DNA of 43,935 bases. Source: a virus. A program made the translations under genes and the position numbers. The DNA is taken from positions 1-43,935 of the IMG/VR virus record IMGVR_UViG_3300035210_000062. One strand, written 5' to 3'. Positions 82 to 31,200 of this stretch are shown here, piece after piece; the first letter of the stretch is position 1; every line of letters starts with the position of its first letter. The notes beneath the pieces are model-generated. The model did not search any database and was not told where the DNA came from. It saw only the letters and a program-made list of their open reading frames with translations.

Positions 82-312
82 CTAGTTTACGATCAATGCA
101 GCCATTTTTACTTCAGCAGGCACTTTTGTTGCAATTCTCCACGCACTGGGGATACCCCGGTGGATGCAGTGCCAACCACCCATATCCCACGAATTAATGC
201 CTTGGGCGAACAGTTGCCCTGCCGGGAGGGTATAACTGATATAAGTAGGATCAATTGTAGCCAGTTCCTCTACTACAACAGACTTGTCGAACCTCAGAAC
301 GAATATAAGCAT
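82..312 (-). CDS. Array paralogue 1: 76-aa protein with C-terminal VPxxVxxA motif
   Basis: A 76-residue protein of unknown function. I chose the ATG at 312 because AGGAGA sits just upstream; the longer reading frame to 504 would run over the neighbouring gene. It ends in KVPAEVKMAALIVN, the same type of tail (hydrophobic-Pro-acid-x-Val-x-x-Ala) found in eleven other small proteins here. The middle holds the aromatic segment LFAQGINSWDMGGWHCIH, comparable to LQWRVLQRG in the next copy. It is among the more divergent copies, so membership rests on the tail and the aromatic core together. Confidence 0.6.
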   Translation of the reverse strand: MLIFVLRFDKSVVVEELATIDPTYISYTLPAGQLFAQGINSWDMGGWHCIHRGIPSAWRIATKVPAEVKMAALIVN

Positions 313-319
313 AAATCTC

Positions 320-580
320 CTATTCCGTGCACAAATGCACGAGTTGAACACATTCAGGTAAATCTTCGACAGCCATTGGTATGATCGCGTCGTAGAAACT
401 ACGTACATCATCAATACGTGAGCCGCGTTGCAACACACGCCATTGAAGACCTTGCGGCTCCAAGAAACGCGCGTATACCTCACCGATTGGGAACTTAGCC
501 GCAATATCCATAGATGTCATATGCGGCGATTCCAGCAACATACGAACATTGCCATTAATTACATTAACGATCAGGGCCAT
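320..580 (-). CDS. Array paralogue 2: 86-aa protein
   Basis: Unknown function. Start chosen at the ATG at 580, two bases after the TAG of the upstream gene (583), with AGG in front; the longer frame to 643 would overlap that gene. The segment VYARFLEPQGLQWRVLQRG parallels YYAKKAFQTHGKCRVMFYRP in the copy at 3141-3512, and the tail DLPECVQLVHLCTE keeps the LPExV signature. The order Tyr-Ala-x-x-(6 to 9 residues)-aromatic strand-basic suggests a common small beta-containing fold, which is inference. Confidence that it is a gene is higher than for any role. Confidence 0.6.
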   Translation of the reverse strand: MALIVNVINGNVRMLLESPHMTSMDIAAKFPIGEVYARFLEPQGLQWRVLQRGSRIDDVRSFYDAIIPMAVEDLPECVQLVHLCTE

Positions 581-582
581 CA

Positions 583-879
583 CTAACCTCGCACAAAGTT
601 CAGCATTTTGATCGGTTCTGGTAGGGTCATTACAGCAGACCACCCAATACCATCAGGCTGGCCATGTCCCCAGTAAGTTGGATTACCCCAGTAGAAATAG
701 TTGTAGTACCACGCAGTCTCAACTTTGCCACGTACTTCCATAGTCCGGCCGCAGAATACGCAACCGGGCTTGTGCAGGTAGAACTCTGGCCAATGAAGAC
801 TAGAGTCTGCATCATCTGTCTCAAAGACAGTGACTATTACATCCTTGGTTTCGTTGAGGATCACCCACACGTTGTTCAT
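583..879 (-). CDS. Array paralogue 3: aromatic-rich 98-aa protein
   Basis: Unknown function. Its start overlaps the stop of the upstream gene (ATGA, 876-879), indicating translational coupling. The protein has a CxxC (GCVFCGR, about residue 40) and a strikingly aromatic stretch, AWYYNYFYWGNPTYWGHG, where the other copies have their aromatic core. It ends TLPEPIKMLNFVRG, a degenerate form of the shared tail. The N-terminus (MNNVWVILNETKDVI) resembles the MTWYAFLYNKVSDSV and MTTFFAVYDTVDKEV starts of two nearby copies. Confidence 0.65.
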   Translation of the reverse strand: MNNVWVILNETKDVIVTVFETDDADSSLHWPEFYLHKPGCVFCGRTMEVRGKVETAWYYNYFYWGNPTYWGHGQPDGIGWSAVMTLPEPIKMLNFVRG

Positions 880-1169
880 GGTGCCACCAACTGCATCATC
901 AGGATTACGTCAGGAACTGATGCCAAACCCACATCAGAGAACTTATACCGCTGGTTTGCGTAACAATATTCACCTTTGTACCAACGGCGAGTATCGTCTT
1001 GCAGATAAACCATACAGAATGGGTCATTTTTATGTGCTCCATCGCATACTTGCAAAACTGCGTTGAAAGATACCCGCGTACTTACTTCGGGTACGTTATT
1101 TACGATCAGGAAGAGTATTCCTGTTGTAGCCCCGGAGATACCCGGGGGTTGGAAGTCCCAATTTCTCAT
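876..1169 (-). CDS. Array paralogue 4: 97-aa protein
   Basis: Unknown function. Coupled at both ends by ATGA overlaps (1166-1169 and 876-879). It contains the family's aromatic core (RRWYKGEYCYANQRYKF, about residues 61-77) and ends SVPDVILMMQLVAP. The first 30 residues look unlike the other copies, so an internal start is possible, but the ATGA overlap argues for the one given. Confidence 0.6.
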   Translation of the reverse strand: MRNWDFQPPGISGATTGILFLIVNNVPEVSTRVSFNAVLQVCDGAHKNDPFCMVYLQDDTRRWYKGEYCYANQRYKFSDVGLASVPDVILMMQLVAP

Positions 1170-1420
1170 TGCGCCAGTAACCTCGCAAGTTTTACAACAT
1201 CCGGGAGAACGTCAGCAAAGAACCACTGTTTGTGCTTCTTATGCCACGCTCCCCATTTGAGTTCGCCGGATACGTACACTTGCGCGTAGTACAGCTCCAG
1301 CTCACCGTTAACAGCCACTTCGTCGAACATAAACTCAGGAATACTTTCCTTATCACCCATCATCTGGGTGTTCGTAACACTGTCGGACACTTTGTTGTAG
1401 AGAAACGCGTACCACGTCAT
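1166..1420 (-). CDS. Array paralogue 5: 84-aa protein
   Basis: Unknown function. Start set at the ATG at 1420, which overlaps the TGA of the upstream copy (1417-1420). The longer frame to 1513 begins inside that gene and adds a low-quality sequence. MTWYAFLYNKVSDSV at the N-terminus, an aromatic core LELYYAQVYVSGELKWGAWH, and the tail VLPDVVKLARLLAQ make this one of the clearest members of the family, nearly matching the tail of the distant copy at 7880 (LVPDVVKLAAMLE). Confidence 0.7.
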   Translation of the reverse strand: MTWYAFLYNKVSDSVTNTQMMGDKESIPEFMFDEVAVNGELELYYAQVYVSGELKWGAWHKKHKQWFFADVLPDVVKLARLLAQ

Positions 1421-1635
1421 GTCAGCATCATCATGGCGACTTGCACTACTTCGGGTACTTCTCCTACCACAACCCCACAATGAGATTGCGTTTCTGGTGT
1501 CCACACCAGCCATGTCTGCGAGGCAGTGAGTGCATACACGTCCATATCATCACGAAGGTAAGGTATGTTCAATATCTGAACATCTAGCACCAGTTCTTGC
1601 GTTTTACGACACCAACCGACTTTCTTTATGCTCAT
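1417..1635 (-). CDS. Array paralogue 6: 72-aa protein
   Basis: Unknown function. ATGA overlaps at both ends (1632-1635 and 1417-1420). The core (DVYALTASQTWLVWTPE, about residues 32-48) and the tail EVPEVVQVAMMMLT match the family pattern. One of the shortest copies; the short N-terminal part suggests the conserved unit is the last 45-50 residues. Confidence 0.65.
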   Translation of the reverse strand: MSIKKVGWCRKTQELVLDVQILNIPYLRDDMDVYALTASQTWLVWTPETQSHCGVVVGEVPEVVQVAMMMLT

Positions 1636-1859
1636 GTCAGTAACATGTGCGCAAGACGCACAGCCTCCGGCACTTCAGTTGTGGTTATAGGGCTGCCGAT
1701 GAGAATATCAACATCAGTACCCAGGCGGTATGCGTACCAGCGATCCGGCACTTTGATGCCATACACTGGACGGTATACCGACCGTGTTTCAATGAACGTG
1801 TCCGAGATGCGGACCACCTCTTTGTCCACTGTGTCGTAGACAGCAAAGAAGGTGGTCAT
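1632..1859 (-). CDS. Array paralogue 7: 75-aa protein
   Basis: Unknown function. Coupled by ATGA to both neighbours (1856-1859 and 1632-1635). N-terminus MTTFFAVYDTVDKEVV, core VPDRWYAYRLG, tail EVPEAVRLAHMLLT. The tail differs from that of the upstream copy (EVPEMVRLAVMIAV) at only a few positions while the bodies differ widely, the pattern expected when the C-terminal helix is constrained and the rest diverges. Confidence 0.7.
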   Translation of the reverse strand: MTTFFAVYDTVDKEVVRISDTFIETRSVYRPVYGIKVPDRWYAYRLGTDVDILIGSPITTTEVPEAVRLAHMLLT

Positions 1860-2122
1860 ACGGCTATCATTACAGCCAGCCGCACCATTTCAGGTACCTC
1901 AGCTTCCTGTTTATACAGACATTCCCCAGGGCACCGGGTCAACGCCCATTGCAGGGAAGTGCGCCAAGGGTAATAGGTGTACGTCCAGTGGGTATCGAAC
2001 AAGCCGCAGCTCACCTCACCGCCATCAATTACTTGACCAGTCGAGTAGTCCCACAGGATTTTGACAGGCACCGCGGGCGCCTGATCTGGGACATTAAATG
2101 GATCATCCCAAGGCAGAGTCAT
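1856..2122 (-). CDS. Array paralogue 8: 88-aa protein
   Basis: Unknown function. ATGA overlaps link it to the unrelated gene upstream (2119-2122) and to the paralogue downstream (1856-1859). Aromatic core FDTHWTYTYYPWRTSLQW (about residues 42-59) and tail EVPEMVRLAVMIAV. The N-terminal third is proline and aspartate rich and not obviously shared with the others. Confidence 0.65.
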   Translation of the reverse strand: MTLPWDDPFNVPDQAPAVPVKILWDYSTGQVIDGGEVSCGLFDTHWTYTYYPWRTSLQWALTRCPGECLYKQEAEVPEMVRLAVMIAV

Positions 2123-2559
2123 GATACTGGCTTCCAGACTTGGATGTTACCCGGCAGGGGATCGATGAGGCCCTTGAACATCCACTCCGGTTCGGTGTGG
2201 CCAGGCCACTCCAAGGCAAAGGTCTTACCACGGTTGGCCAAGGCCACCGCAGTCAGGTCATGCAGTGCCCGGGACACCAGACGCAGATCAACCCCGTTGC
2301 GAGGCGAGATCATGTGCTGTAGGATGCCCACCTTGCCATTGGCACGCAGATAGAACTCCCCGCCATCACCACACGTCTCCTTGATCCACGCTCCCATCTT
2401 CGCCTTTAGGGTAGGGTATTTAAGACCCAACACCCCGGCGAGACCATTGAGCATAATAAGCTCTCCGGTCTCACTTCGCAGCTTACTGGCTACACAAATG
2501 ATGAAATGATCGACTTCGTCGAACACAGACATCATATCCCCACGTTTAATCGTATTCAT
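2119..2559 (-). CDS. Unrecognised 146-aa early-region protein
   Basis: Sits inside the paralogue array and is coupled to both neighbours by ATGA overlaps (2556-2559 and 2119-2122), but has neither the aromatic core nor the PExV tail. The body is well-behaved globular sequence with LNGLAGVLGLKYPTLKAKMGAWI (about residues 37-59), which could be a winged or HTH-like helical segment, followed by GEFYLRANGKVGIL. I do not recognise the family. An alternative start at residue 9 or 10 (MMSVFDEVDHF) is possible; SVFDEVD resembles TFDEVND in the copy at 3141-3512. Confidence 0.6.
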   Translation of the reverse strand: MNTIKRGDMMSVFDEVDHFIICVASKLRSETGELIMLNGLAGVLGLKYPTLKAKMGAWIKETCGDGGEFYLRANGKVGILQHMISPRNGVDLRLVSRALHDLTAVALANRGKTFALEWPGHTEPEWMFKGLIDPLPGNIQVWKPVS

Positions 2560-2903
2560 GACTTCTCCCTCACATATTCAGCAACCCGAACACATTCGGG
2601 TATGTTGGTTGTTAATTCAGGCGACCAGCGCTCCCAAGGTAACGCAACAGCAGGCAATGACATCCATTGCTTATCTACACACACCCAAGCGTGACAACCT
2701 TCATAAGTTTGCGCAATTTTATGAGCATACTCATTATCTTGGCTTTGTGCGTTAGTGATAGGGGCACCATCGACGTACTGACCGTCTTTGGTGAAGTGGA
2801 ACATGTACGCAGCCACAGATACATTCTCCGTTGTGCCAATAGAGACACGAACGACACCGTTTGCGTCCCTTAATTCGAACTTGTCAGCCGTGAAGGTAAT
2901 CAT
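2556..2903 (-). CDS. Array paralogue 9: 115-aa protein
   Basis: Unknown function. The first half (MITFTADKFELRDANGVVRV) reads like a beta-rich domain. The second half carries the family signature EYAHKIAQTYEGCHAWVCV followed by W, then the tail NIPECVRVAEYVREKS. The segment Tyr-Ala-x-Lys-(8)-Cys-x-x-Trp aligns directly with YYAKKAFQTHGKCRVMFY (3141-3512) and YLYRQEAKNFPDCRVWCC (2906-3151), which is the best evidence that these genes are true paralogues rather than chance tail matches. Confidence 0.7.
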   Translation of the reverse strand: MITFTADKFELRDANGVVRVSIGTTENVSVAAYMFHFTKDGQYVDGAPITNAQSQDNEYAHKIAQTYEGCHAWVCVDKQWMSLPAVALPWERWSPELTTNIPECVRVAEYVREKS

Positions 2904-2905
2904 AG

Positions 2906-3151
2906 TTACCCCTTTATCAAATCTGCCAACACCACCACATCAGGCGGTGTTGCAAATATCCAGATCGCAGAACGTATTTTATTTGTTTCCATGTAAGCCC
3001 ATCCGAACTGTACACAGCACCACACACGACAATCGGGGAAATTCTTGGCCTCCTGTCTATATAAGTATGTGTCCGGGTAATCAAGGACGATAACGCCCTC
3101 AATTGACCCATCACGCTCCACGTACCAGACAGGTGTAGGCTCAGCCTGCAC
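2906..3151 (-). CDS. Array paralogue 10: 81-aa protein, probable GTG start
   Basis: Unknown function. The ATG at 3190 would overlap the upstream gene by 50 bases. I prefer the GTG at 3151, which has AGGTGG about 9 bases upstream and gives an N-terminus (VWYVERDG after six residues) like the other copies. Core YLYRQEAKNFPDCRVWCCV and FGWAYM, tail TPPDVVVLADLIKG. The start choice is uncertain; the gene itself is well supported. Confidence 0.6.
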   Translation of the reverse strand: MQAEPTPVWYVERDGSIEGVIVLDYPDTYLYRQEAKNFPDCRVWCCVQFGWAYMETNKIRSAIWIFATPPDVVVLADLIKG

Positions 3152-3512
3152 AGAGCATGGCCACCTGAAGCTCAGGCGGCACCTTATCATGCTGCACCGT
3201 CATAAGCGACGGACGTTTGTACAAAGTACCCACGTTTGCATTCTTCCAGCGGATTTCACGCCAAACACGGTCAACACCGGGACGATAGAACATCACCCGG
3301 CATTTACCATGAGTTTGGAATGCTTTCTTTGCGTAGTACGCACCATCGAACTTGGAACGTTCTTCAATTTGCAGAACGTCGCCATCACGGAATACTGCGC
3401 ACAGAACTGGCTCAGCAATGTGAGCACGCTTCACAGTATGATTCATGGTGTTCATTGGATCGTTTACCTCGTCAAATGTGGCCATCCATGCAGGTTTGCC
3501 TTGGATGCTCAT
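3141..3512 (-). CDS. Array paralogue 11: 123-aa protein
   Basis: Unknown function. Start set at the ATG at 3512, which overlaps the stop of the upstream membrane-protein gene (3509-3512); the longer frame to 3569 lies inside that gene. It has the fullest form of the family: a beta-rich N-terminal part (VLCAVFRDGDVLQIEER), the YYAKKAFQTHGKCRVMFYRP core, a Trp-rich stretch (DRVWREIRW) and a tail with an inserted residue (KVPPELQVAMLCAG). It is the first copy in transcription order in this block. Confidence 0.65.
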   Translation of the reverse strand: MSIQGKPAWMATFDEVNDPMNTMNHTVKRAHIAEPVLCAVFRDGDVLQIEERSKFDGAYYAKKAFQTHGKCRVMFYRPGVDRVWREIRWKNANVGTLYKRPSLMTVQHDKVPPELQVAMLCAG

Positions 3513-3826
3513 ACAGCCTCCAGAACACCCATTGGGTTCATGACATGAGTCATTGTTGTACCATTCCACACGCCTGCCCGCATAATGCGGAACATGGCGA
3601 AGGAATTGGCCAGCTCTTGCAGTTCACCAAGGGTTTCAGCATGATGGATGACAGTTTGCCACCCATTGCCCTGCAAGTTCTTCAGATCGAGGGTAAGCCG
3701 CAACAAGTTGGACCCTTCATGATACATCTCACTGCTTTTCTGGCTTCGCCCCAGCTCAACCAGCACAAGGAGGATGAAGCCGAGGCAACCCAGCGCAAAC
3801 AGAACGTTAACGATTACTTCCAGCAT
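3509..3826 (-). CDS. Single-pass membrane protein, 105 aa
   Basis: An N-terminal hydrophobic segment (LFALGCLGFILLVLVELG, about residues 9-26) preceded by few charges and followed by a basic patch fits a signal anchor or single transmembrane helix. The rest is a helical soluble domain with Leu repeats (NLLRLTLDLKNLQG). No family recognised. It is translationally coupled to the first array paralogue downstream and lies two bases from the next membrane-anchored gene upstream, so the two could work together at the inner membrane. Confidence 0.6.
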   Translation of the reverse strand: MLEVIVNVLFALGCLGFILLVLVELGRSQKSSEMYHEGSNLLRLTLDLKNLQGNGWQTVIHHAETLGELQELANSFAMFRIMRAGVWNGTTMTHVMNPMGVLEAV

Positions 3827-3828
3827 GG

Positions 3829-4473
3829 TTATGCAACCTTCTTGGCAGCGACCGCACGAAGACGGTCATGTTCTTGAATAATGGCTTGATTGAACGCACG
3901 ACGAACACTCGGAAGGGCAATCTTGTCGTTCATTACGTTGGTCACAGCCTCAGTAAAGCGCATACGCCTTACATTGGCATTAGTCAGCTCACTGTCGTAG
4001 TGACGGATAGTTGCAGCCTGATTGTCGATAGACTTCTGCATAAACTTCTGCATCTGTGCACGACCTTTCTTGGCACCAGCACGAACGCCACGAACATACA
4101 GGTTCTTGGCTTTCTTGTTGAAAGCTGGATTTATTGCAAAATCAACTGCCTGTTCCACGAGCATTTTGAGCATTTTTGCAGGATCATCGCCATGTTTGGC
4201 AAAGTCCCACACACCAGTGTCAGTCATGACTTCTACCAGCGCATGACGATACTTATCCGCATATGCCCACTTACAATGGTGCTCACGAGCATTATCTTCA
4301 GCATCTTTCAGCAGTTCACGCCATTTAGCGTCACACGCATGCAGATGTTCACGTTGCAACGAGTTACCCAGCAGTTGCTGACTTTCACAGCGGGCATAGC
4401 CCAACATTGCACCTACAATCAGGCACAGCAGTGCACCAATACCACCCCAGCAGTACAGATTAATCATTTCCAT
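3829..4473 (-). CDS. Membrane-anchored helical protein, 214 aa
   Basis: Begins with a hydrophobic stretch containing small residues (CWGGIGALLCLIVGAMLGYA, about residues 8-27), a likely N-terminal transmembrane helix. A long, charged, mostly helical region follows, with a Lys/Arg/Gly-rich centre (GVRAGAKKGRAQMQKFMQ) and a basic C-terminus (AVAAKKVA). The start at 4473 is supported by GGAG upstream. The architecture (one membrane anchor plus a helical cytoplasmic or periplasmic part) recalls spanin-like or superinfection-exclusion proteins, but there is no motif to support either, so I leave the function open. Confidence 0.6.
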   Translation of the reverse strand: MEMINLYCWGGIGALLCLIVGAMLGYARCESQQLLGNSLQREHLHACDAKWRELLKDAEDNAREHHCKWAYADKYRHALVEVMTDTGVWDFAKHGDDPAKMLKMLVEQAVDFAINPAFNKKAKNLYVRGVRAGAKKGRAQMQKFMQKSIDNQAATIRHYDSELTNANVRRMRFTEAVTNVMNDKIALPSVRRAFNQAIIQEHDRLRAVAAKKVA

Positions 4474-4518
4474 GGTTTACGCTCCAAAGGGCATATAAAG
4501 ATGTAGACGAGTGCGGCT

Positions 4519-4803
4519 TTACCACGGGTTATTGCCCCGCGGGCCACAGTTTGGTTGAGGTTTCGCCTTATGATGGCGCTTGAGTTGATTACGCGAAGGA
4601 TGCAGCTCTTTATAGGGCCAACCGTGCGTGATCATGTCCAAGTTATCGTCATGCAGACGTATCTCGTACATGACAGTACCCATCAGTACGGCATTGGCTA
4701 AGGCCAGTCGCATACGCAGGTTTGTCTTTGGCGCCCCTCGTAATAACGGCTCAAAGCCTTGGATTACGGCGTTATACACACCAGTTGGTAACTTATCTGT
4801 CAT
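4519..4803 (-). CDS. Unrecognised 94-aa basic protein
   Basis: I chose the ATG at 4803 (GAGAG in front); an upstream ATG at 4833 falls inside the terminator of the preceding gene. The protein has a helical centre (LRMRLALANAVLMGTVMYEIRLHDDNLDMI) and a very basic, proline-rich C-terminus (LKRHHKAKPQPNCGPRGNNP) that could bind nucleic acid. No family recognised. Confidence 0.55.
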   Translation of the reverse strand: MTDKLPTGVYNAVIQGFEPLLRGAPKTNLRMRLALANAVLMGTVMYEIRLHDDNLDMITHGWPYKELHPSRNQLKRHHKAKPQPNCGPRGNNPW

Positions 4804-4815
4804 GGTTTCGCTCTC

Positions 4816-4851
4816 AAAAATGAGGGCCACCACCCCAATGGGATGATGGCC
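4816..4851 (-). terminator. Intrinsic terminator, minus strand
   Basis: The minus-strand RNA forms a 12-bp stem (arms 4840-4851 and 4825-4836) with an ATT loop, followed by CTCA and five T (plus-strand A-run 4816-4820). Two of the pairs are G-U wobbles that pair only in the minus-strand RNA and would be A-C mismatches in the plus-strand RNA, so the direction is clear. It follows the stop of the gene at 4858-5193. Confidence 0.7.
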
Positions 4852-4857
4852 GTCGGC

Positions 4858-5193
4858 TTACACCAGATCGAGCATCGACTCTTCGTCGGTACGGGTTGGG
4901 TTGAAGCTGAATTCCAGCTTGGCAACCACTTCAGCCAGGCGACGTGCTTTTTCAGCCGCACGGGCTTCATCGCCGACGAACTTGTCGTCACCTTCGCGCG
5001 CCAGACCGAGGTAGGCCGCCAGTTGTTCGTGAGTCTTGTTGCCTTCGATGAAGCGGATGGCGTCAACACGAATCGGGTTACCCGACCGGGTCGCCATGTT
5101 CAGGTTGAAGAAGCCGAGGGTTTTCTTGGCAGCGCTGCCATTTTCGGTACGGGCAGCAGCAGCGGTGGTTTGATTCTTACGTTCAACAGCCAT
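4858..5193 (-). CDS. Unrecognised 111-aa protein
   Basis: Start at the ATG at 5193 behind GGAG (8 bases upstream); the longer frame to 5358 runs through the intergenic hairpin and adds a Cys-rich, unlikely leader. The protein has an Ala/Thr/Ser-rich N-terminus, then GFFNLNMATRSGNPIRVDAIRF, which reads like a small beta domain, then an acidic helical part ending in EESMLDLV. The composition and acidic end recall small phage nucleic-acid-binding proteins, but I cannot name a family. It forms its own unit, ending at a strong terminator. Confidence 0.65.
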   Translation of the reverse strand: MAVERKNQTTAAAARTENGSAAKKTLGFFNLNMATRSGNPIRVDAIRFIEGNKTHEQLAAYLGLAREGDDKFVGDEARAAEKARRLAEVVAKLEFSFNPTRTDEESMLDLV

Positions 5194-5273
5194 GGGAAAT
5201 ACTCCAGAATAACGGATAAGTGAGGTTTGTTTGGCACAGATTGCCTTTACAGGGCCGAAGGCCGCTTTTGATG

Positions 5274-5534
5274 CTACTTTGGTACATCCAGTGAGATATT
5301 CACGGTAATGCCTGCATAAATTGCAGCAACGTACATGGTATCGAACGAAACACGCCATTCTTCACCACGATTGATGAAACCGACGATGTTGGTGCTAACA
5401 CCAAGAATTTCGCTCGCAACCTGCTGAGTCCACGCGTTTACCTTGATTTGCTTGCGCAATTCCTTGGCAATCAGTTCCTTCATGTGGCCCAAGGATTGTT
5501 TCGCGAAGCAATTGGTGCTTTGTACCTGTTTCAC
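5274..5534 (-). CDS. Small HTH (XRE-like) DNA-binding protein
   Basis: The region WTQQVASEILGVSTNIVGFINRG (about residues 35-57) fits a helix-turn-helix of the XRE type: a first helix with QQVASEILGVS and a recognition helix TNIVGFINRG, followed by SFDTMYVAAIYAGITVNI in place of the usual closing helices. At 86 residues it is the length of a minimal phage regulator. The start is GTG at 5534, directly behind GGAGG and overlapping the stop of the upstream gene (GTGA). It could regulate the neighbouring small-gene cluster; the operator is unknown. Confidence 0.65.
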   Translation of the reverse strand: MKQVQSTNCFAKQSLGHMKELIAKELRKQIKVNAWTQQVASEILGVSTNIVGFINRGEEWRVSFDTMYVAAIYAGITVNISLDVPK

Positions 5535-5719
5535 AGTTGACCTCCAGGTAATGGTCGAACGTTGCTACGCCCGTACCAACATTTGACACCGTTGTACAAA
5601 ATGACCCAAACCTTCGTTTGTAGGTCGATAGCTAGTGCGTCTTTGGGGTGTGGGATGACTTTTGCGATTTCTTCAGAATTGACGATGACTCGCTGGCCAA
5701 TTAGAAAGTCCATACTCAT
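5531..5719 (-). CDS. Unrecognised 62-aa protein
   Basis: Small beta-rich protein (VWVILYNGVKCWYG near residues 36-49) coupled to the HTH gene downstream by a GTGA overlap. Two ATG codons (5719 and 5713) share the AGAGG ribosome binding site; either may be used. A 6-bp hairpin with a three-base loop lies 24 bases before the first ATG. Co-expression with the HTH protein suggests a regulatory pair, but the sequence itself gives no function. Confidence 0.55.
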   Translation of the reverse strand: MSMDFLIGQRVIVNSEEIAKVIPHPKDALAIDLQTKVWVILYNGVKCWYGRSNVRPLPGGQL

Positions 5720-5742
5720 ACCTCTGGTTTAGCCTACCGCCG

Positions 5743-5757
5743 GCCCTCTATGAGGGC
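5743..5757. promoter_or_regulatory. Perfect hairpin GCCCTC-TAT-GAGGGC
   Basis: A 6-bp perfect inverted repeat with a three-base loop, 24 bases upstream of the gene at 5531-5719. N4 virion RNA polymerase recognises promoters as short hairpins (5-7 bp stem, three-base loop) on single-stranded DNA, so this has the right shape, but not the loop sequence I remember for N4. There is no T-run, so a terminator is less likely. Confidence 0.35.
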
Positions 5758-5818
5758 ACATAGCAGTATGGTTTTCATCGCCGAATAGGGCAATTACTGC
5801 ATTGATAGAATATCGGTA

Positions 5819-6112
5819 TCAGAATTGGAACAAATCCGACTCGATACCCTTGAGACCAAACTCAAGGTGATACTTTGTAGCCTTGGCTTTGACCTGGGCC
5901 AGAGTACCGCAGCCAGTCTGCTCGGCGACCTTAACCAAGGTCACATTCTCGATCAGGATGGCATTGGTGGCATCACGCTGCAAAGTTGCAGCCTGTACCT
6001 CACAGCTCTCACCCTTACGGATAACCGAGGTCATTTCAGTGTAAGAGTTGGAGCAAGATACTTCGCCAGTCACGGTACTGGCAATGCAGGTCATAAAGTA
6101 AGCGAAGATCAT
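5819..6112 (-). CDS. Small Cys-containing exported protein A, 97 aa
   Basis: The first 15-20 residues are hydrophobic (IFAYFMTCIASTVTGEVSC), like a short signal sequence lacking a strong positive start. The mature part has three cysteines in the order VSCSNSY, ESCEV, TGCGTL. The next gene upstream has the same order (VCIVNTY, NCYV, HNCYST), with matching spacing of the flanking helices, so the two appear to be paralogues. Small disulfide proteins of this type would act in the periplasm; the target is unknown. Two bases separate it from its partner. Confidence 0.55.
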   Translation of the reverse strand: MIFAYFMTCIASTVTGEVSCSNSYTEMTSVIRKGESCEVQAATLQRDATNAILIENVTLVKVAEQTGCGTLAQVKAKATKYHLEFGLKGIESDLFQF

Positions 6113-6114
6113 GA

Positions 6115-6417
6115 TTATTTATCCATGTTACGGATGGCGTACATAACGCCACCATCACTGTAAGTTTTCATGACTCGCTCGATGACAGCATCGCGATGAG
6201 CCACAGTTGAGTAACAATTGTGCGAACCCTTCTCCAAGCGCGTTACACCCGCTTGTTTCTTGAGTTCGTTATTCAGTTTGTACCGGACGTTGTCCATGGT
6301 GACATAACAGTTAGCATCACTGAACGAAAGGAACTTGTCGTACGTGTTCACGATACAAACTGTGCCGCCATCGACAACAGCGGCACACACCAGTGCTACT
6401 GTTGCGAAGAAGGGCAT
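6115..6417 (-). CDS. Small Cys-containing exported protein B, 100 aa
   Basis: N-terminus MPFFATVALVCAAVVDGG is a plausible signal sequence. The mature part contains VCIVNTYDKFLSF, NCYV and HNCYST, matching the cysteine order of the downstream gene, and a helical C-terminal half. It lies three bases after the gene at 6421-6873 and two before its paralogue. Function unknown; a periplasmic or envelope role follows only from the signal-like start. Confidence 0.55.
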   Translation of the reverse strand: MPFFATVALVCAAVVDGGTVCIVNTYDKFLSFSDANCYVTMDNVRYKLNNELKKQAGVTRLEKGSHNCYSTVAHRDAVIERVMKTYSDGGVMYAIRNMDK

Positions 6418-6420
6418 AAG

Positions 6421-6873
6421 TTACTCCTTGATAGACGCGGCGTACTCGCCAAGCAGATTCATGACAGTTTCATCACTGGTTTCAGGGAGACCGGCAGCTT
6501 TAATAGCTGTATGTATCTCACCTTCTGAGTGACAGCAGTGATACGCCGCTTCAATGATCAAGAACATCGGATCAGCCGCACGCAACTTAGCAATCAAGTT
6601 ACGATAGAACGTGAGTTGATAGTGCACATACTCAGGACTTTGAACAGACACGCCTTGGGGCATACTGCCAGTTTCACGCAAGTAGCCGGCCAATGTAACG
6701 TTGTTGCCAATGGCATTACGAATTACTTCTTGTGCTGCCTCGCTCTCGTCAAGCGTGATGTGCTTACGCGCATGTGCGCTCATCCAATCAAGATGACAGC
6801 ACATATACATGCGACTATTAGGGTCTTGGTCGAGCAGGCTCAAGGCCAACTCAAGTGTTTGGGAAACATGCAT
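6421..6873 (-). CDS. Unrecognised helical 150-aa protein
   Basis: An all-helical looking protein with several Cys and His residues (MYMCCHLDWMSAHARKH, about residues 22-38; AYHCCHSEGE, about residues 110-119). The two CCH clusters could bind metal, which is inference. The ATG overlaps the stop of the 41-aa gene upstream by one base (TAATG). No family recognised. Confidence 0.6.
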   Translation of the reverse strand: MHVSQTLELALSLLDQDPNSRMYMCCHLDWMSAHARKHITLDESEAAQEVIRNAIGNNVTLAGYLRETGSMPQGVSVQSPEYVHYQLTFYRNLIAKLRAADPMFLIIEAAYHCCHSEGEIHTAIKAAGLPETSDETVMNLLGEYAASIKE

Positions 6874-6998
6874 TAGTTGTCCTCTGCTTGCGCGTCAAAG
6901 TAGCCTTGTTGCCAGTCGGCACACTTGGTTGGGTCGAATTCTTCATCGAGTTCATACGCGTCGTAGCCTTCATCGTAGGCGAGAATGTTCTTGGGCAT
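6873..6998 (-). CDS. Small acidic 41-aa protein
   Basis: A gene of 41 codons: MPKNILAYDEGYDAYELDEE, then FDPTKCADWQQGYFDAQAED. The start has GGAG six bases upstream, and the stop overlaps the next ATG (TAATG). The pattern of Gly-Tyr/aromatic plus acidic residues (EGYDAYELD, QQGYFDAQAED) recalls short phage proteins with a repeated G-x-x-A helix face. Function unknown. It fills an otherwise unexplained gap exactly. Confidence 0.65.
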   Translation of the reverse strand: MPKNILAYDEGYDAYELDEEFDPTKCADWQQGYFDAQAEDN

Positions 6999-7000
6999 GA

Positions 7001-7225
7001 TTAACTCCGTGCAATAGCACATTGGATAATGAAGGTGTCGAGTTGTGCACGAAGACGCAGGGCATCTTCTTTAGTCAACAACACACTGATTTTTTGTTTT
7101 TGTTCGTTGGTCATGACCAGGGCGAACAACAACGCATGTTGCGGCTGCTCCATGTCAGTGGTGTAGCTCACCAACTCATCTGATGGAGTTACAGCACACT
7201 GAAACAACTCGGAGTCTTGCGGCAT
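7001..7225 (-). CDS. Unrecognised 74-aa protein
   Basis: Well-formed short protein with a hydrophobic beta strand (HALLFALVMTNEQKQKISVLL) and a C-terminal helix (KEDALRLRAQLDTFI). Two bases separate it from the genes on each side. The strand-helix layout with LTKEDALRLRAQLD is common in small phage proteins of unknown role. Confidence 0.6.
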   Translation of the reverse strand: MPQDSELFQCAVTPSDELVSYTTDMEQPQHALLFALVMTNEQKQKISVLLTKEDALRLRAQLDTFIIQCAIARS

Positions 7226-7227
7226 GG

Positions 7228-7563
7228 TTACTGCTCCAGAATGAATTTACGAACTGCCTCAACGTCAGCCAGTGTGACCACTTCCCAGCCCCTGTCATGA
7301 ATGACAGCCAACATGGCATCAGGCTTGCTGCCATACATGGTGAGCATGACAGTTACTTTCGCGAGTGCACCAGCAGCAGTGTCATGCGGGATAGGTTTGC
7401 CTGGCTCCATATTCTGGATATGTTTGATCGCATCATTACGAATGCTGAGATCTTCGAGTGAACGGATGTGATCATTCACAAGTGCTTGATCGGACTCTTC
7501 AATGAGCCCATCACTTACAGCAACAGCAAGACATGCGCGCAAAGCGATGATTAATTCTTTCAT
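7228..7563 (-). CDS. Unrecognised helical 111-aa protein
   Basis: Start set at the ATG at 7563, preceded by AGGAG; the frame could open further upstream at 7590 but that would run into the intergenic hairpin. Helical throughout, with MKELIIALRACLAVAVSDGL at the N-terminus and VEAVRKFILEQ at the end. No motif recognised. It is the last gene before a hairpin-bearing spacer, so it may begin a transcription unit covering the genes at 6421-7225. Confidence 0.6.
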   Translation of the reverse strand: MKELIIALRACLAVAVSDGLIEESDQALVNDHIRSLEDLSIRNDAIKHIQNMEPGKPIPHDTAAGALAKVTVMLTMYGSKPDAMLAVIHDRGWEVVTLADVEAVRKFILEQ

Positions 7564-7583
7564 TGGATATAACTCCTGAGATT

Positions 7584-7601
7584 GCCCCACATTTGCGGGG
7601 C
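7584..7601 (-). promoter_or_regulatory. Hairpin in the leader of the 7228-7563 gene
   Basis: In the minus-strand RNA, GCCCC (7601-7597) pairs with GGGGC (7588-7584), extended by a G-U wobble and two more pairs to an eight-pair stem with a two-base loop. The wobble pairs only on this strand. There is no T-run. It sits about 20 bases upstream of the start codon, as do several other hairpins before minus-strand genes. Confidence 0.45.
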
Positions 7602-7621
7602 TACTTACATGACTGGTTTAG

Positions 7622-7828
7622 TTACAACAGATCTTCAGCAGTAGCAATAACTTCGTAAGGATTGCCATCTTCTACGTCATGTTTGACCACGAGGGTGCAA
7701 TCATCAACGAGAACACCATGCAATGCACGGTACACGCGCTTAGCATCTTCAACAGATGCAACACCAACATGAAGGTGACTATCAGAAGCAATGACAAGCA
7801 TATCGAGCATGTACTGGAATTGATTCAT
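7622..7828 (-). CDS. Unrecognised 68-aa protein
   Basis: Start chosen at the ATG at 7828 (GGGG about 8 bases upstream); an in-frame GTG at 7864 would add 12 residues. The protein has a ferredoxin-like alternation: MLVIASDSHLHVGVASVEDAKR (strand, then helix), then a strand (CTLVVKHD) and a short acidic end. Function unknown. Confidence 0.55.
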   Translation of the reverse strand: MNQFQYMLDMLVIASDSHLHVGVASVEDAKRVYRALHGVLVDDCTLVVKHDVEDGNPYEVIATAEDLL

Positions 7829-7879
7829 GGGAATACCCCTAATTAATGAATTGAATACCTTCACAGCACCGAAGGTGAA

Positions 7880-8107
7880 CTATTCCAGCATTGCAGCAAG
7901 TTTGACGACGTCAGGTACAAGATCAACGCTAATTTGCGTATCACTTATCTTTGGAGTGATGGGAGTAATACTCGACCACTTGAATTGAATATTCCACCAA
8001 TAGTAGGCAACACCACCATAGTCATGAAGCGCATCGACTACTTCTGAATGTGTAGGCAAGCATTCGAACGTTTTGACACTGCCATCAGACAGCAACATGT
8101 ATTCCAT
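7880..8107 (-). CDS. Array paralogue 12, separate from the main array
   Basis: Unknown function. It lies 4.4 kb from the tandem array, yet its tail DLVPDVVKLAAMLE is almost the same as VLPDVVKLARLLAQ in the copy at 1166-1420, and its core AYYWWNIQFKWSS fits the family's aromatic segment. This is the first array-type gene transcribed from the promoter region at 8.35 kb, so the family flanks the small-gene cluster at both ends. A separate origin by duplication is the simple explanation. Confidence 0.65.
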   Translation of the reverse strand: MEYMLLSDGSVKTFECLPTHSEVVDALHDYGGVAYYWWNIQFKWSSITPITPKISDTQISVDLVPDVVKLAAMLE

Positions 8108-8124
8108 GATGAAACCCCCGAATA

Positions 8125-8268
8125 CTATATGAACTCGTAACTATAACGGACATCAGGTAACTTGCTACGCAAATCAGACAGCACACCACTGACAAAGGCC
8201 AATGTAGCTTCCTGATGCATATAGTGATACCAGACGATACCCAATTTGTTGACACATACAATACGCAT
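8125..8268 (-). CDS. Small 47-aa protein
   Basis: A 47-codon frame with GAGG about 8 bases before its ATG: MRIVCVNKLGIVWYHYMHQE, then ATLAFVSGVLSDLRSKLPDV, ending RYSYEFI. It has good protein-like composition, unlike the Cys/Trp-rich overlapping frame on the same strand. It is the first gene downstream of the sigma70-like promoter at about 8.35 kb. Function unknown. Confidence 0.55.
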   Translation of the reverse strand: MRIVCVNKLGIVWYHYMHQEATLAFVSGVLSDLRSKLPDVRYSYEFI

Positions 8269-8355
8269 GGCAATAGCCTCATAAGAATCCACCACAGGAC
8301 CGATAGGTCACGATAGCACATAGACATGCATAGGTATGACGAATGGGGATGACAG

Positions 8356-8384
8356 AATACAGGAATGGCATAAACCTATGCCAA
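8356..8384 (-). promoter_or_regulatory. Sigma70-like promoter with overlapping 18-bp palindrome
   Basis: On the minus strand, TTGGCA (8384-8379) is followed after exactly 17 bases by TGTATT (8361-8356), a fair match to host sigma70 consensus (5/6 and 4/6). The palindrome TGGCATA-AACC-TATGCCA (8366-8383) covers the -35 element and part of the spacer, the place where a repressor or activator would act. Transcription would start near 8348 and enter the small-gene cluster. Host-polymerase use is inference. Confidence 0.45.
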
Positions 8385-9062: not shown

Positions 9063-9425
9063 GGTGAATCTCCAATCGATTGGTAAGGATAGGCACCGAA
9101 GTACCCATCACATAGCCGAAGGCTTAGGTAAGAAGATCCTCTACGTAGTGAATGATGACTAAGGCACAGATGGCGCAGATCATAAGGTAAGGTCCCAGGC
9201 AGACTCAGGAGTGCAGCATGACAGGGCCGCAGGCCCGTAAGTGAACATAAGGGGTGGTGGGTCCTTGAGGAAAACGAATAAGGTAGCACCCCGGGGGGGT
9301 ATATTGAGTAAGGTGGTCGCCGTTACATATGCCCTGAAAGCGTCAGTCTATGAAGTTTTTCCCTCATACTGCGACCAACGGTATTTGTGCCATACTCCCC
9401 TATATCTCAACGACGGGTGGCATTC
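9063..9425. other. Control region between minus-strand unit and late operon
   Basis: No confident gene. It contains the hairpin GGGCC-GCA-GGCCC (9224-9236), with a three-base loop, and a C4G7 run (about 9291-9301). It must hold the start of the rightward late operon, whose N4 counterparts use weak host promoters activated by phage SSB; I see no strong -35/-10 pair. A 19-codon minus-strand frame at about 9123-9182 is too short and poorly started to call. Confidence 0.4.
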
Positions 9426-25247: not shown

Positions 25248-28200
25248 ATGGCAAACGGCGACGAGAACAACGGTTTCGACCAACTGTTCCCTGCCGGTCT
25301 GCCCGCTGCACAGGAAGGGGGCTTTAAGCCCCTTTTCGACCTTTCAGCGAAAGCTGAATCGGTTGCAGCGGCTTCTGAACAAAAGAAGCAGACTCTTATC
25401 GATAAAGTGGGTTATGAAGTTGACGATACTTTAGGGGCTGCCCTCAACTTTGGGGCATCCTTCGTGTCCGGCGCCAGCCGTTTGGCCGGCAACCTTACAA
25501 CCCTGCCTATCGATTTGATCTCTGGTTTGGCCCAAGGCTCTGTTCCTGAAGAACAGGTTCAAGCGTACAACCGACTGCAAACTGGCCAAGCCTCTGAGGC
25601 TGACCAGGCCCTTCTTGCGCAGACTGCACCGTATGAAGACGGTGTGCCGCAATCTTACCTGCAACGCCTGCAAGGCACTCAAGGTTTGCAAGAAGTTGCG
25701 CAAAACGTCGATGACTTCTTCAATATCGACAGCATCGTCGATCAAACCAACCGTGGGCGTCTGAGCCGGGATCTCAAAGAGAACACCGGTGATGGCGTCA
25801 ACCGTCTGCGTTATGCAGCGGAAGCGTTCAAGATTGGGCATTATAAAGACGCACTGACCGAAGGCTTCGGCGGTCTTGATTCGACTTTGAGCGAGGCGTT
25901 GAAAACTGCGGGAAGCAGCCCAGTAGCTACTGGCGAATACGTAGTAGAGAACATTCCCCAACTGTTGGCTGCGGCCTACAGTGGGACACTCATGGCTGCA
26001 TCAAACGCGGGTTACGGTTATGACGCCTACCGTGAGGGTGTGCGTCAATTCTTCGACCAGAACAATGGCCAACTGCCGAACGCCGATGAGCGTGCGAAGA
26101 TGGGCCTGTTTGCTGCATCCGCTGCCCTGGCTGAACAAGTCGGCGACGCCTCCATGTTGCGCGGCTTCCGTGCAGCCGGTACCGGTACCGGCTCCAAGGC
26201 TATGGCCGCGGCTGCGGGTATTGGTGGTGCCATGACACGCGAAGGCGTGACTGAAGGCTACCAGACCTACGCTGAATCCAAAGCCAAACTGGAAGATGCA
26301 TCTTTGGAAGAAATCGTCGAAGGCGCCACCATTGGTGCGCTTGTTGGCGGCAACTTCCACGGTTTTGTAGAACTGGCGAATGCCGGTGCTCCAAAAGAAG
26401 ATCCGGCCGCTCGTGCCGCATCTAATCAAGCATTTACCGCTGCTGTTGAATCCGGCGATGTTTCGTCCCTGACTGATGCAGAATCTGCCACGTATAATCC
26501 GGTTCGTGCTGTTGAAGCGCTGCACCAGATGAACCTGTCGGAAAATGCTGACGTTAAGGCAAACCTCGCTCAAGCAGACCAAATTCAGCAAAACGTGACG
26601 GCTGATGTGTCGTCTCTGCAAGCCCGTCTGGAAAACACTTCCCCGGAAGCTGTTGCCCGGATCGGTTCCCTCGTTGAACAGCTTGAGGCCGCTGGTGCAG
26701 ACCAAGCCCAAATCGCTGAACTGCGTGAGATCCATGAGGCTGTGTCGAGCTACACACCGGAACAACGCAAAGCTGATGAGGCACGGCTTGCCACACTGGA
26801 AAACCAGTTGGGTGAGATTCATACCGCGGCCGAGCGCATGCGCGTAGATGCCAGCCCTGAGCAGGCTGAAGTCGAAAGCATGGCTACCGAAGCACAGGCA
26901 GGTGATACCCAGGCGGCTGACCGTCTGCTAACCCTGACCATGATCAACCCTGATTCCATCGACACCCAGCTTGCCGAGTCTCTTGCACAGAGCGGAGCGC
27001 TGTCGGAGCCGCAACGTATTGCCATGCGCCTTTTCAGCGAGGCTCAGGTGGCAACCAACGCCCTGAAAGGCCTTACTGGCGTACGTTCGGACATTGCCAC
27101 TGGTGGTGATGGTTTCAAAGGTATCTCGCAATATCGCAATGCAATCCGTATGGCCCTGGCCAATGGCAACGAAGACGCAGCCCGCTCGCAAGTCGATGGC
27201 ATCCGCGCATTCGCTGACAGTCGTGTGTCGAAACTGAACGCTATCACCACTGCTTTCGAGCAAGTGAAGGGCACTGATAATTCGATCAATATCGTGCGGA
27301 ATCAGCAAGGTGAATGGGGTCCGACTGACCTGAAGGGCAAAGCCCTGAAGAAAGCCGGTGGTCTGGAAGTCTCGGCACGTTCTTTCAAGCTACGCGACGG
27401 TGTAGCTGCGGAAGCTGACGCATTGTCCAAGACTGCTGCTGCATTCGAAGCTCTGGTAAATGCTGCTCCATCTCCTGAAGCGGCACCGGTTGTGCAACCG
27501 GCTGCTGGCGTACAGGGTGAAGTTACCCCGGCAACTCCTGAAGTTGCGGCAGACCCAATCGTTGAAATTGCGCCGGTAGCTCCGGTCGTAGCAGAAGCGG
27601 CTGCGCCTGCTGTAAAAGAAGAAGCTGCGGTCACACCAGAAGAAGCCCCGGCAACGGCCGAGTCGGTACCGGCAAATGCTGGCCAACTCACCGCAATCGG
27701 CGAGCAAACTGGTGCGGCGGTAACTGCCGACAACTACCGTTCTATCAATCTGGTTTCTGAGCTGTTTGAACAACAAGCTGGCAACGAGACTGATGCAAGC
27801 GTTCGCCCGCTGGTAGCGATCAAAGACTTCGCTTCGGCTGTCAAAGCCGGCGATGTGCAGGCAAAGGACTTCATTGATCAAGAAGGTGACCTTACTGCCC
27901 CGCAAACCCAAGCCCTTAACGCTTTCTTTAACTTCGTGCAATTCTCTGCACAAGCGATCCGCAACCAATTTAAGGTGACGGAATCTCGCGCCAAACGCCC
28001 GGACTTCTTCTACCGGGACATGGCGCAATTCCTCCAGAACGCGGATGGGCAAATTGATGAGAACTTGGCGACTGCCGTCTCTTTTGGCATGTTCTCCTGG
28101 GCCAACGAAAACGCAACTCAACTGCGTAATTCCGACGAGGGTATCAACGCTATTCTGTTGAAAGAACTCGATTCTGAGATCTCGTCTGCTGCCTATAAAG

Positions 28201-31200
28201 AGCTGTCGCTGATCGGTACGCGTGAATCCGTGGTTGCCTCGCAACTCGGTGGGCGTATCGTTCAAGCGATGGGTCTGCGCCCAAACCAGCAAGGTACCTC
28301 TGCTGAGCTGAGCAAGCTGGAAGCTTCTATCGGTGCCCGGGCCATCGCGGCCATGGTTAAGCTGGGTATCGTTGAACGTGTGCAATTGGCAGACGTCAAA
28401 CTGCAAGCCCTGATGAACTCCGGTGAACAAGGCGATCCGCGTGTCAAGCACACCTTCGTCCGGGTTAAATCGGAAGAGGTGAATGGCAAGCGCGAGCCGG
28501 CTCCTGTGGTCAAACGCATCCGTGATCGCAACGTCGGCTCGCAGTCGGTGGTGTCCAAGCTGATGTCGGTTGAAGCCGCGGGCGTTGAGCCGAGCTACAC
28601 CCCGGTCAAATTTGACCAAGCTTTCGCTAAACGTACCGGTCAAGCCATCCCTAAAGGCCTGGCCGAGACCTTGAATAAAGAAGGGGCCAAAGCTCACGTC
28701 GTGCGCCAGAACATGTGGCACGTCTGGGGCAAACTGAGCAAGCAGGCCCTGTACGAGATGGGCGGTGTGGTTTCCACTACCGACATCCCCACTCACGTTG
28801 AGAACCTGGATTCCCGTCAGGCGAAGAATGATGGGCTGATTCAGCAAGTCGATAACCTCGACACCTTCATCAACGCCATGGCGGCGGATACCAGCACCAA
28901 TGGCCTGGAACAGGAAATGTTCTTCGGTCGTTCGGTGTGGAAACCTCAACGTGTCGGTTTGACCGCAAACGTGGTCAACCCACAGACCTCCAAGATTCAT
29001 CGTCACATGTTGGCCATGAAAGGCTGGAATGCGTCCATTGAGTTGGCAGACGCCGCATCAATGAACAACTTCAAGCTGCGTGTGCTGGAGGCGTTCGGCA
29101 AGAAGACTGAAGCAACCAATACCCCTGTGGTTCTGGCCGGCTACGACGCTGTTGTGTCGAATCCTGCAATTCAGGCTGGTATTGACGCATTGGTCGATGT
29201 TCTGCGCGACACTGGTACAACCAATGAAGCTGCCATCGTCGCCGCAGTAAAAGCCGGCGGCGAGAACTTCCATTCGTTTGACGCACTGGTTGCCCTGGCT
29301 GAACAGCGTATTGCTGAACAGGACGGCAAGCCTGCGTTCGAAACCAGCATGATGGGTGAAGTTGACGGCGTTACCAACGGCCCTATGCTGTCCTTGCTGA
29401 TGCTCGGCGCCAAAGGCTTTGAAACCATGAACCAAGGTGGTTTCTTCGAGCTGGAAAGCCCGTACAGCCAGTTCAATGACTTCCACGGCGTGGATGGCAA
29501 CCTCGATCTGTACGAGTCGAACATCGCTGACTCGCTGAACCGTCTGCAAGGGCGCAACGTCAACATGCTGCAAGCCATGCAGGCAATCACTGGTCAACTG
29601 CAAACTGCCGAAGGCAACGTGACCTCCAAGGGTCGTAACATCATCAAGAAGCCGCTGACCGCGCTGATGTTTGGGTCCAATCCGAAAACAGCCGTAGAAG
29701 GTATGGCTGATGGTTTTGTTGAAGCAATTTACAGTCGTATCGAAGATGCTGCGGCGAACCGTGACGATGCTGCTGTCGAGGCGTTATTTACAGCGGTCAA
29801 CACCCTGATCGGTTCCAAGAAAGCTGCACTTGACGTGAAGATGGGGTATGTCCAGGCACTCGAAGCCAAGCTGACCGAACAGCAGAAAGCTGCCTTGAAG
29901 AAGTCGTTCTACGATCTGCTGGGCAAGCCAACCGAAGATGCACTGGCCGATAACTACGCGACGTTCATTGCACGCCGTAACGTGATCAACCAGACCGCAC
30001 AACTCTCGTTTGACCTGTACAACGCGGTGCGTGACGGTGTAACTGAGTTCGTCACCACAAACAGCCCTGATGTCCCAACAACTACCTATCGCCCACGCAT
30101 TAAAGGCACAGATCAACGTGGAGCGCCGGTAACTGAGGCAATCCGTACCCTGACCAAAGAACAGTTGACCAAAGTCACCGAGCTGATGGGTGATATGGCG
30201 CCAATCCTGCAAACTGCCATGTCTCAGGCGGCCAAGCAGCGTGAAGCGGGTATGTACATGGCGAAGTCGCAGCGTAAGCTGGATTCTTCGATGCCTTACG
30301 AACAAGAAGTCGCATTCGGTGACATGGTGAACACCATTGCCCCGGACGGCCAAATGCAGGGCATAGGCTCGTCGTTGGTGTCGTCGCTACGCAATGAAGA
30401 CATCGACCCGGGCGTGATGCCGTTCATTACCTCGATTCACTCTTCCGACTCGGCGATTGCCTCGGCAGTCTACGGTGAAATGGAAGCGCTCAACGTTCAC
30501 GATGCCCTGGGTGTCGATTTGAACAACGTAGCGAAAGTGGGCCAGGAACTGAACAAAGCCACGTTCAGTACCCTGCTGAACTATTCGTCGCCGTCGGCAA
30601 TGTCCAACATGTTGGATGAAGTGCTGGCCGGCGTTGCAAAAGTGATGCAGAACCCGGAACTGGCTGCGCTTATTCAACCGAAGCTGCGCGAGAAGATGAT
30701 TCAGCGTGCTGAGAAGAAACGTGGTGGCATTGCTCAACAACTGACCGCTATCCGTGAAACTGCCCGTCAGGCAGACACCGATAAGCTGGCCATGATGGCT
30801 GAGCTGAAAGCAATCGGGCAGTACGCCACGGAAGGCGGTTCGTACATGGTGACCGACGCTGATCGTGAAGCTGCATCCAAGAAATTGGGTGAAGTGGGCA
30901 ACTCGTTCAACGAAGGCGCTGAATCGGTTGCTGAAATGCTGGATGTCGCCGCTGCTGTCGATCCTGCTGTGTATCAGCCGGGTCAACGCGCTGTGTTGTC
31001 CAACACCTCGATTTCTACCCTGGCACCGGCCACTTCCCTCAATACTCTGGCTTCGCTGGAGCAAACTGAGGCGGTACTCAAGGTTATTGATTCCATGGTT
31101 TCGGGTAACCGGACCCTGGGCGATGCTGTGCAGGTTCTGCCTGAGCATCAAGCCGCGGAGGTAATCAATGCGGTAAACGGCGCATCGGAAGCGAAGCTGT

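Follow-up and report, generated by a model that had tools for sequence, protein, structure and literature searches.

Small early genes ahead of RNAP1 in a Shizishanvirus-like phage form an array of paralogues with a common C-terminal tail

The viral DNA of 43,935 nucleotides in IMG/VR record IMGVR_UViG_3300035210_000062 (the window) carries at positions 82-3512 an array of twelve minus-strand genes with plausible starts, eleven of which encode proteins of 72-123 residues that end in a common C-terminal tail. The nearest named relative of the record is Pseudomonas phage phCDa (Shizishanvirus, NC_048003). The start of RNAP1, the homologue of phCDa gp49, was read in window bases 1-60, and thus the array is the final block ahead of RNAP1, as in phCDa; on its other side, upstream, lies a gene for a Drc-like RNA polymerase cofactor. 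The adjoining RNAP1 homologue and the synteny with phCDa and IMG/VR relatives place the phage in Schitoviridae (N4-like phages), as Shizishanvirus-like. An open frame of 3396 residues at 25248-35438 is by size and position a candidate for the giant virion RNA polymerase gene. The genes of the array were named, from 3512 downward, A12, A11, A10, X9, A8, A7, A6, A5, A4, A3, A2 and A1, and a scan of all open frames added a distal family copy, A13. All lie on the minus strand:

82-312, minus strand: A1, 76 residues, tail VPAEVKMAALIV; the last copy before RNAP1, orthologue of phCDa gp47
320-580, minus strand: A2, 86 residues, tail LPECVQLVHLCT; orthologue of phCDa gp46, found in every complete array locus
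583-879, minus strand: A3, 98 residues, tail LPEPIKMLNFVR; orthologue of phCDa gp45
876-1169, minus strand: A4, 97 residues, tail VPDVILMMQLVA; orthologue of phCDa gp44, modelled with AlphaFold2 (E E H E E E H)
1166-1420, minus strand: A5, 84 residues, tail LPDVVKLARLLA; present in 6 of 9 complete loci
1417-1635, minus strand: A6, 72 residues, tail VPEVVQVAMMML; orthologue of phCDa gp43
1632-1859, minus strand: A7, 75 residues, tail VPEAVRLAHMLL; body related to the phCDa gp42 group (P 2e-4)
1856-2122, minus strand: A8, 88 residues, tail VPEMVRLAVMIA
2119-2559, minus strand: X9, 146 residues, tail-less and not a member; PHROG 335 'phosphatase'
2556-2903, minus strand: A10, 115 residues, tail IPECVRVAEYVR; orthologue of phCDa gp40
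2906-3151, minus strand: A11, 81 residues, GTG start, tail PPDVVVLADLIK; body linked to A10 and A12
3141-3512, minus strand: A12, 123 residues, tail VPPELQVAMLCA; first of the array, orthologue of phCDa gp39
7880-8107, minus strand: A13, 75 residues, tail VPDVVKLAAMLE; the distal copy, orthologue of phCDa gp27, modelled with AlphaFold2 (E E H E E E H)

The tail is an amphipathic helix motif led by proline, P-[ED]-x-[VIL]-[KRQ]-[LMV]-A-x-[ML]-[LMV] or a near variant of it, and is found in all array genes except X9. The strict form P-x-x-V-x-x-A-x-x-L stands within the last 18 residues of 11 of the 12 members including A13, against 0.13 (maximum 2) in residue-shuffled proteins; the remaining member, A6 (VPEVVQVAMMMLT), fits the pattern once M is permitted at the last position. 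This bears out an earlier sequence-only reading of the locus as a tandem, minus-strand set of eleven small genes with a common tail, from which the distal copy A13 is missing. That reading had most of the genes joined by ATGA overlaps, which is true of seven of the eleven internal junctions (2556/2559, 2119/2122, 1856/1859, 1632/1635, 1417/1420, 1166/1169 and 876/879), while at 3141/3151 the genes overlap by 11 bases, with a GTG start, and at the other three junctions they are separated by 2-7 bases; one more ATGA (3509/3512) links the upstream gene to the array. The Y-A-x-K ... C-R/H-x-W/M-aromatic core that it saw in several members is literal in A10 and A12 only and loose in A11, and the equivalent stretch of the other members corresponds to helix 1 and strand 3 of the predicted fold described below. 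A C-terminal degron was rejected as an explanation of the tail, since the last two residues vary in nearly every copy.

Whether the likeness extends beyond the tail was judged from alignments of orthologue groups compared pairwise by hhalign, with eight early proteins from the same phages as controls. Full-length profiles matched at P<0.01 in 86 of 120 group pairs and in none of 128 pairs with control proteins. After removal of the tail, P<=0.01 was reached in 10/120 group pairs, as compared with 0/128 for the controls and 2/240 for column-shuffled profiles, in which composition and depth are preserved. Rank tests on the tail-less profiles gave p 2e-7 against column-shuffled profiles and p 7e-10 against control proteins. 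The linked tail-less pairs include A13-A13b, A10-A11 (P 1e-6), A11-A12, A1-A2, A1-A3 and A1-A13 (the three A1 links at P 1e-4 to 3e-4), A7-gp42 and A10-A1b. Judged by these profiles, the array proteins are a genuine paralogue family whose similarity extends past the tail, and the sequence-only reading, which depended on similarity outside the last 14 residues, is upheld in this respect.

The predicted structures point in the same direction. The AlphaFold2 model of A13, built from 20 sequences including A1 orthologues, has a mean predicted local distance difference test score (pLDDT) of 88.6 and a predicted template modelling score (pTM) of 0.76; that of A4, built from seven orthologues only, has 71.8 and 0.65. 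Both have the order strand-strand-helix-strand-strand-strand-helix, with the tail motif as the last helix, despite the lack of a sequence link between the two bodies (P about 0.3). The structure prediction proposed with the sequence-only reading thus yielded one topology in two members with unlinked bodies, its coverage being these two members. From the two models, and from profile similarity for the other members, the family seems to encode one small alpha/beta domain. The tail might instead be a short motif acquired convergently by proteins with no other relation, a view favoured by the 110 of 120 tail-less pairs that are not significant; the rank tests on the bodies and the same topology in two unlinked members make this very unlikely. 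Because tail-less profiles match past the tail and the two models share a topology, neither a similarity confined to the last 14 residues nor a set of unrelated folds was found.

Among predicted viral proteins, searched with Foldseek, the A4 model matches phCDa gp44 with E below 0.001, and gp39 and gp40 (the A12 and A10 orthologues) with probability 0.90-1.00 but E above 0.01; the A13 model matches gp27 and gp28 with E below 0.001, and gp40 weakly. Protein length and group served to assign the gp numbers of these matches. The A4 model also matches a 90-residue protein of the LIT1-like phage phi176 (probability 1.00, E 0.029), which is probably a homologue of LIT1-type gp22. Among solved structures, no PDB chain matched the A13 model at Foldseek E below 0.001, neither model gave a VIA Z >= 6, a missing match that is not evidence for a new fold, and a profile search of PDB by sequence with the family found nothing convincing. 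The only recurring phage protein among the solved-structure matches is Dmd of T4 and RB69, with Z 3.4-3.6 over 44-52 residues (A13 with 5hy3_B: Z 3.6, 2.3 A over 46 residues, and with 5i8j_B: Z 3.5, 1.9 A over 44; A4 with 5hy3_B: Z 3.4, 2.5 A over 52). Dmd is thus among the best-aligned PDB chains for both models, and the members might act like Dmd, as antitoxins or decoys against host RNase toxins or similar defence proteins. This is improbable: Z values below 4 also arise from common arrangements, no sequence similarity of the family to PDB Dmd chains was found at E<=10, and the weak resemblance to T4 Dmd covers the first five elements only, with no counterpart of the tail helix. Since Z under 8 is common for unrelated folds, the resemblance is taken as a lead only.

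RNAP1 searches gave eight phCDa-group contigs including phCDa itself and 28 more distant N4-like loci, and an A12 search gave one further contig. In the resulting relatives, phCDa and eight metagenome contigs, every open frame was assigned by profile. The order is fixed: A13 (with 0-3 extra copies), A12, A11, A10, X9, gp42, A8, A7, A6, A5, A4, A3, A2, A1b, A1, gp48, RNAP1; A11 and A10 are swapped in some relatives, and individual members are absent from individual phages. The loci reaching RNAP1 hold 9-16 family copies per genome, and A6, A4, A3 and A2 are found in every one of them. The search of other N4-type phages proposed earlier thus returned a variable copy number in fixed order, and a shorter array of Littlefix type; in the other IMG/VR N4-like relatives (loci L021-L048) the tail array was absent save in the Littlefix record. 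In phCDa, the orthologues are the early genes gp39-gp48 and gp27-gp29, annotated as hypothetical, with the same order, the same tail and the same place before RNAP1; gp27, the A13 orthologue, belongs to the second small cluster gp27-gp29. Unlike the window, phCDa has no A5, A7 or A8 and has gp42, A1b and gp48 as well as three distal copies; two of the phCDa copies lack annotation. Unannotated family members in public records lie at 27660-27890 and 25685-25894 of phCDa (L002) and at 6770-6988 of Littlefix (L013).

The family members are under purifying selection. Pairwise ratios of nonsynonymous to synonymous substitution (dN/dS) have family medians of 0.16-0.26, compared with 0.14-0.29 in control early genes, although many pairs approach saturation at synonymous sites, so that the ratios rule out gross acceleration only. 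Rapid positive selection on the array was rejected within the same bounds. The fast divergence claimed in the sequence-only reading is not supported by the fixed orthologue order or by the medians, which match those of control early genes. Because orthologues keep a fixed order and dN/dS is ordinary, the divergence of the paralogues is old, and the array represents a long-established, stable family found in Shizishanvirus-like and Littlefix-like N4 phages.

No member matched at library threshold in Pfam, PHROGs, NCBIfam or PADLOC, A8, A10, A11 and A13 being covered by some of these libraries only. The best library match, DUF2097 for A5, was rejected at 20.3 bits against a cut-off of 25, as were single PHROG matches of members, which are below cut-off or have E about 0.1. 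The family was not described in the papers found, in a search that left subscription papers outside, and a review of the N4-like family does not mention paralogues (PMC7650795). The view of the array as an undescribed family therefore stands, with no fitting family in the four libraries.

Littlefixvirus (Littlefix gp49-gp56, 98PfluR60PP gp81-gp86) has ATGA-linked small genes around a PHROG 335 gene before RNAP1, with a P-led C-terminal helix and bodies distantly similar to phCDa-type groups. It differs in having eight copies only, all of which carry tails of the form P-x-x-[IVL]-x-M-x-x-L-[IV]-G, distinct from P-x-x-V-K-L-A-x-M-L of the phCDa-type. Tails group by lineage (permutation p 2e-4 to 2e-3). 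The Littlefix bodies resemble particular phCDa-type groups (LFa-A1b P 1e-4, LFg-A8 6e-4, LFc-A12 and LFe-A6 about 1e-3), and in tail-less profiles they are mutually similar in 0/28 pairs, a comparison weakened by profiles of 1-2 sequences each. Within-lineage similarity exceeds between-lineage similarity when tails are included (p 1e-5) and not in tail-less profiles (p 0.86). By these sequence comparisons, tails are lineage-wide and bodies do not follow lineage. This hints at a shared partner of the tails, as a partner that changed from one lineage to the next would yield such a pattern. Gene conversion or the shallow Littlefix profiles are alternative sources of this split.

This pattern bears on the foremost alternative to separate partners for each copy: the tail helix would be a constant handle that docks to one common partner (phage RNAP1/RNAP2, the virion RNA polymerase or a host protein), and the variable bodies would be adaptors bringing different things to it. 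Besides the eight Littlefix tails sharing M-x-x-L-[IV]-G on bodies no closer to one another than to phCDa-type bodies, in 13 of 14 orthologue groups the tail is better conserved than the body (0.77 vs 0.43 in A13, 0.80 vs 0.36 in A1b), and K, R or Q stands at tail position 6 in 79 of 96 tails, perhaps beyond the needs of packing. On the other hand, a terminal helix packed against the sheet should likewise be the most strongly conserved part, AlphaFold2 confidently places the tail in the domain, and gene conversion or lineage-specific expansion might unify the tails. A common docking partner is thus possible, though considered fairly unlikely.

More distant candidates occur in Litunavirus. The small proteins gp18 and gp20-gp22 of LIT1/PEV2-type phages, encoded in LIT1 (L014) at 5532-5879 and 6836-7691, flank RNAP1 and have P-led tails resembling those of the array, such as VPPEIRAQSLLFD; they number about four copies, and their tails have diverged. 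Judging from tails and position, they are likely distant family members in Pseudomonas aeruginosa phages. In LIT1 they also stand between RNAP1 and RNAP2, and this arrangement, together with the overlapping genes, the fixed order, the core set in all relatives and the adjacency to RNAP1, would suit paralogues that are subunits of one early hetero-oligomer, such as an assembly accessory to the middle RNA polymerase or to the entering phage DNA. A copy number of 9-16 with single members gained or lost is unusual for a fixed complex, and this explanation is regarded as distinctly unlikely.

As for the neighbouring genes, X9 matches PHROG 335 'phosphatase' (E 2.7e-6) and has orthologues in phCDa gp41 and Littlefix gp53; genes annotated 'phosphatase' that adjoin RNAP1 in LIT1 and KPP21 are its counterparts by annotation. 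X9 might be a divergent macro domain, for which Pfam and PDB sequence searches gave no confirmation. The Drc-like gene at 4861-5193 (minus strand) matches the single-stranded-DNA-binding RNA polymerase cofactor of PDB 6qlc (E 0.001), and other small early genes lie beside it upstream of the array. Genes that look like homologues of it carry the label 'toxin' in the records of LIT1, KPP21 and Littlefix, which is probably a wrong name. A small tail-less open frame, MNQFQYMLDMLVIASD..., stands at 7643-7829 (minus strand) between A13 and the next gene. Ahead of the first early gene lies a candidate promoter:

9288-9300, minus strand: hairpin ACCCC-CCC-GGGGT, 5-bp stem and 3-nucleotide loop; candidate early promoter of the virion RNA polymerase type

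This 13-mer is identical in 6 of the 8 loci compared, the window included. The region 9224-9300 (minus strand) contains two conserved perfect hairpins with 3-nucleotide loops (ACCCC-CCC-GGGGT and GGGCC-TGC-GGCCC), both candidate promoters of the virion RNA polymerase. Promoters of the N4 virion polymerase are hairpins of about this size (PMC3715699), and because of this resemblance the array block, by its position and its upstream hairpin, is likely transcribed early.

A host-takeover or anti-defence role of the array proteins is a plausible hypothesis. The preferred reading, to which about an even chance is given, is that the copies are small binding domains, each with its own fixed partner in the host or in phage transcription. 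Since the array belongs to the early block that ends at RNAP1, its proteins would be made within minutes of infection. Each copy would then bind its own partner, either a protein of the host or part of the phage transcription machinery, and block or redirect the activity of that partner. Specificity may reside in the variable sheet and loop surface, while the C-terminal helix would hold the fold together and may double as a shared contact. The core set kept in all relatives would address conserved targets, and the variable set targets or defences that differ between hosts. Several observations weigh against this reading. Body similarity is weak in most pairs (median P 0.2) and above chance only as a set; two members were modelled, A4 with moderate confidence; and the strict conservation of order with ordinary dN/dS fits a structural or regulatory complex equally well. 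Unusually fast evolution, a suggestive mark of host-takeover and anti-defence proteins, is not seen, dN/dS being no higher than in control early genes.

Two other N4-like lineages carry comparable arrays of their own. When four-residue motifs shared by early small proteins were counted without supervision, phCDa, Littlefix, KPP21 and one or two Cbunavirus-type loci stood out among about 20 N4-like loci. The array of KPP21 is as follows:

2843-8356 of locus L015 (23604-29117 of NC_029017): apparently unrecognised paralogue array of KPP21

It consists of 27 tandem genes for proteins of 57-83 residues, with K-x-x-K-E in 26 of the 27 (0.74 expected by shuffling). Its counterpart in LUZ7 is probably a cluster reported as 29 small genes without similarity to database entries (PMC3715699). 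Like the present array, the LUZ7/KPP21 clusters are specific to a lineage of N4-like phages and consist of tiny genes united by one short signature; they differ in the signature itself, K-x-x-K-E nearer the N-terminus, and lie at a different place. In Nepra (Cbunavirus, L017 3072-8368), a further lineage-specific array lies before RNAP1: of 12 small early genes, 9 or more share [RQ]-T-x-x-L-[LI] (0.12 expected); an array of this type also occurs at loci L037 and L045. Salmonella phage FSL SP-058 (L020 3833-6773) has several tiny Cys-rich look-alike early proteins (MNxxLxxIL ... LC ... C ... C), possibly another array. No relation of the KPP21/LUZ7 and Nepra arrays to the present one was seen, by inspection only. 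These loci suggest that arrays with a shared signature recur among N4-like phages. It is conceivable, though quite unlikely, that several lineages independently build modular takeover toolkits, in which arrays of small early proteins combine a lineage-specific constant element, docking to a common hub, with variable bodies that address different targets. If true, such a toolkit would not have been described before, and the hub could be of the phage or of the host.

As annotated, the early regions of N4-like phages consist mostly of hypothetical proteins with no relation to one another. In one group of these phages, about half of the early genes before RNAP1 seem to collapse into a single fold family, which gives one structural frame in place of a dozen orphan proteins, and the lineage-wide tails on lineage-independent bodies would allow a direct test of a shared docking element in early phage proteins.

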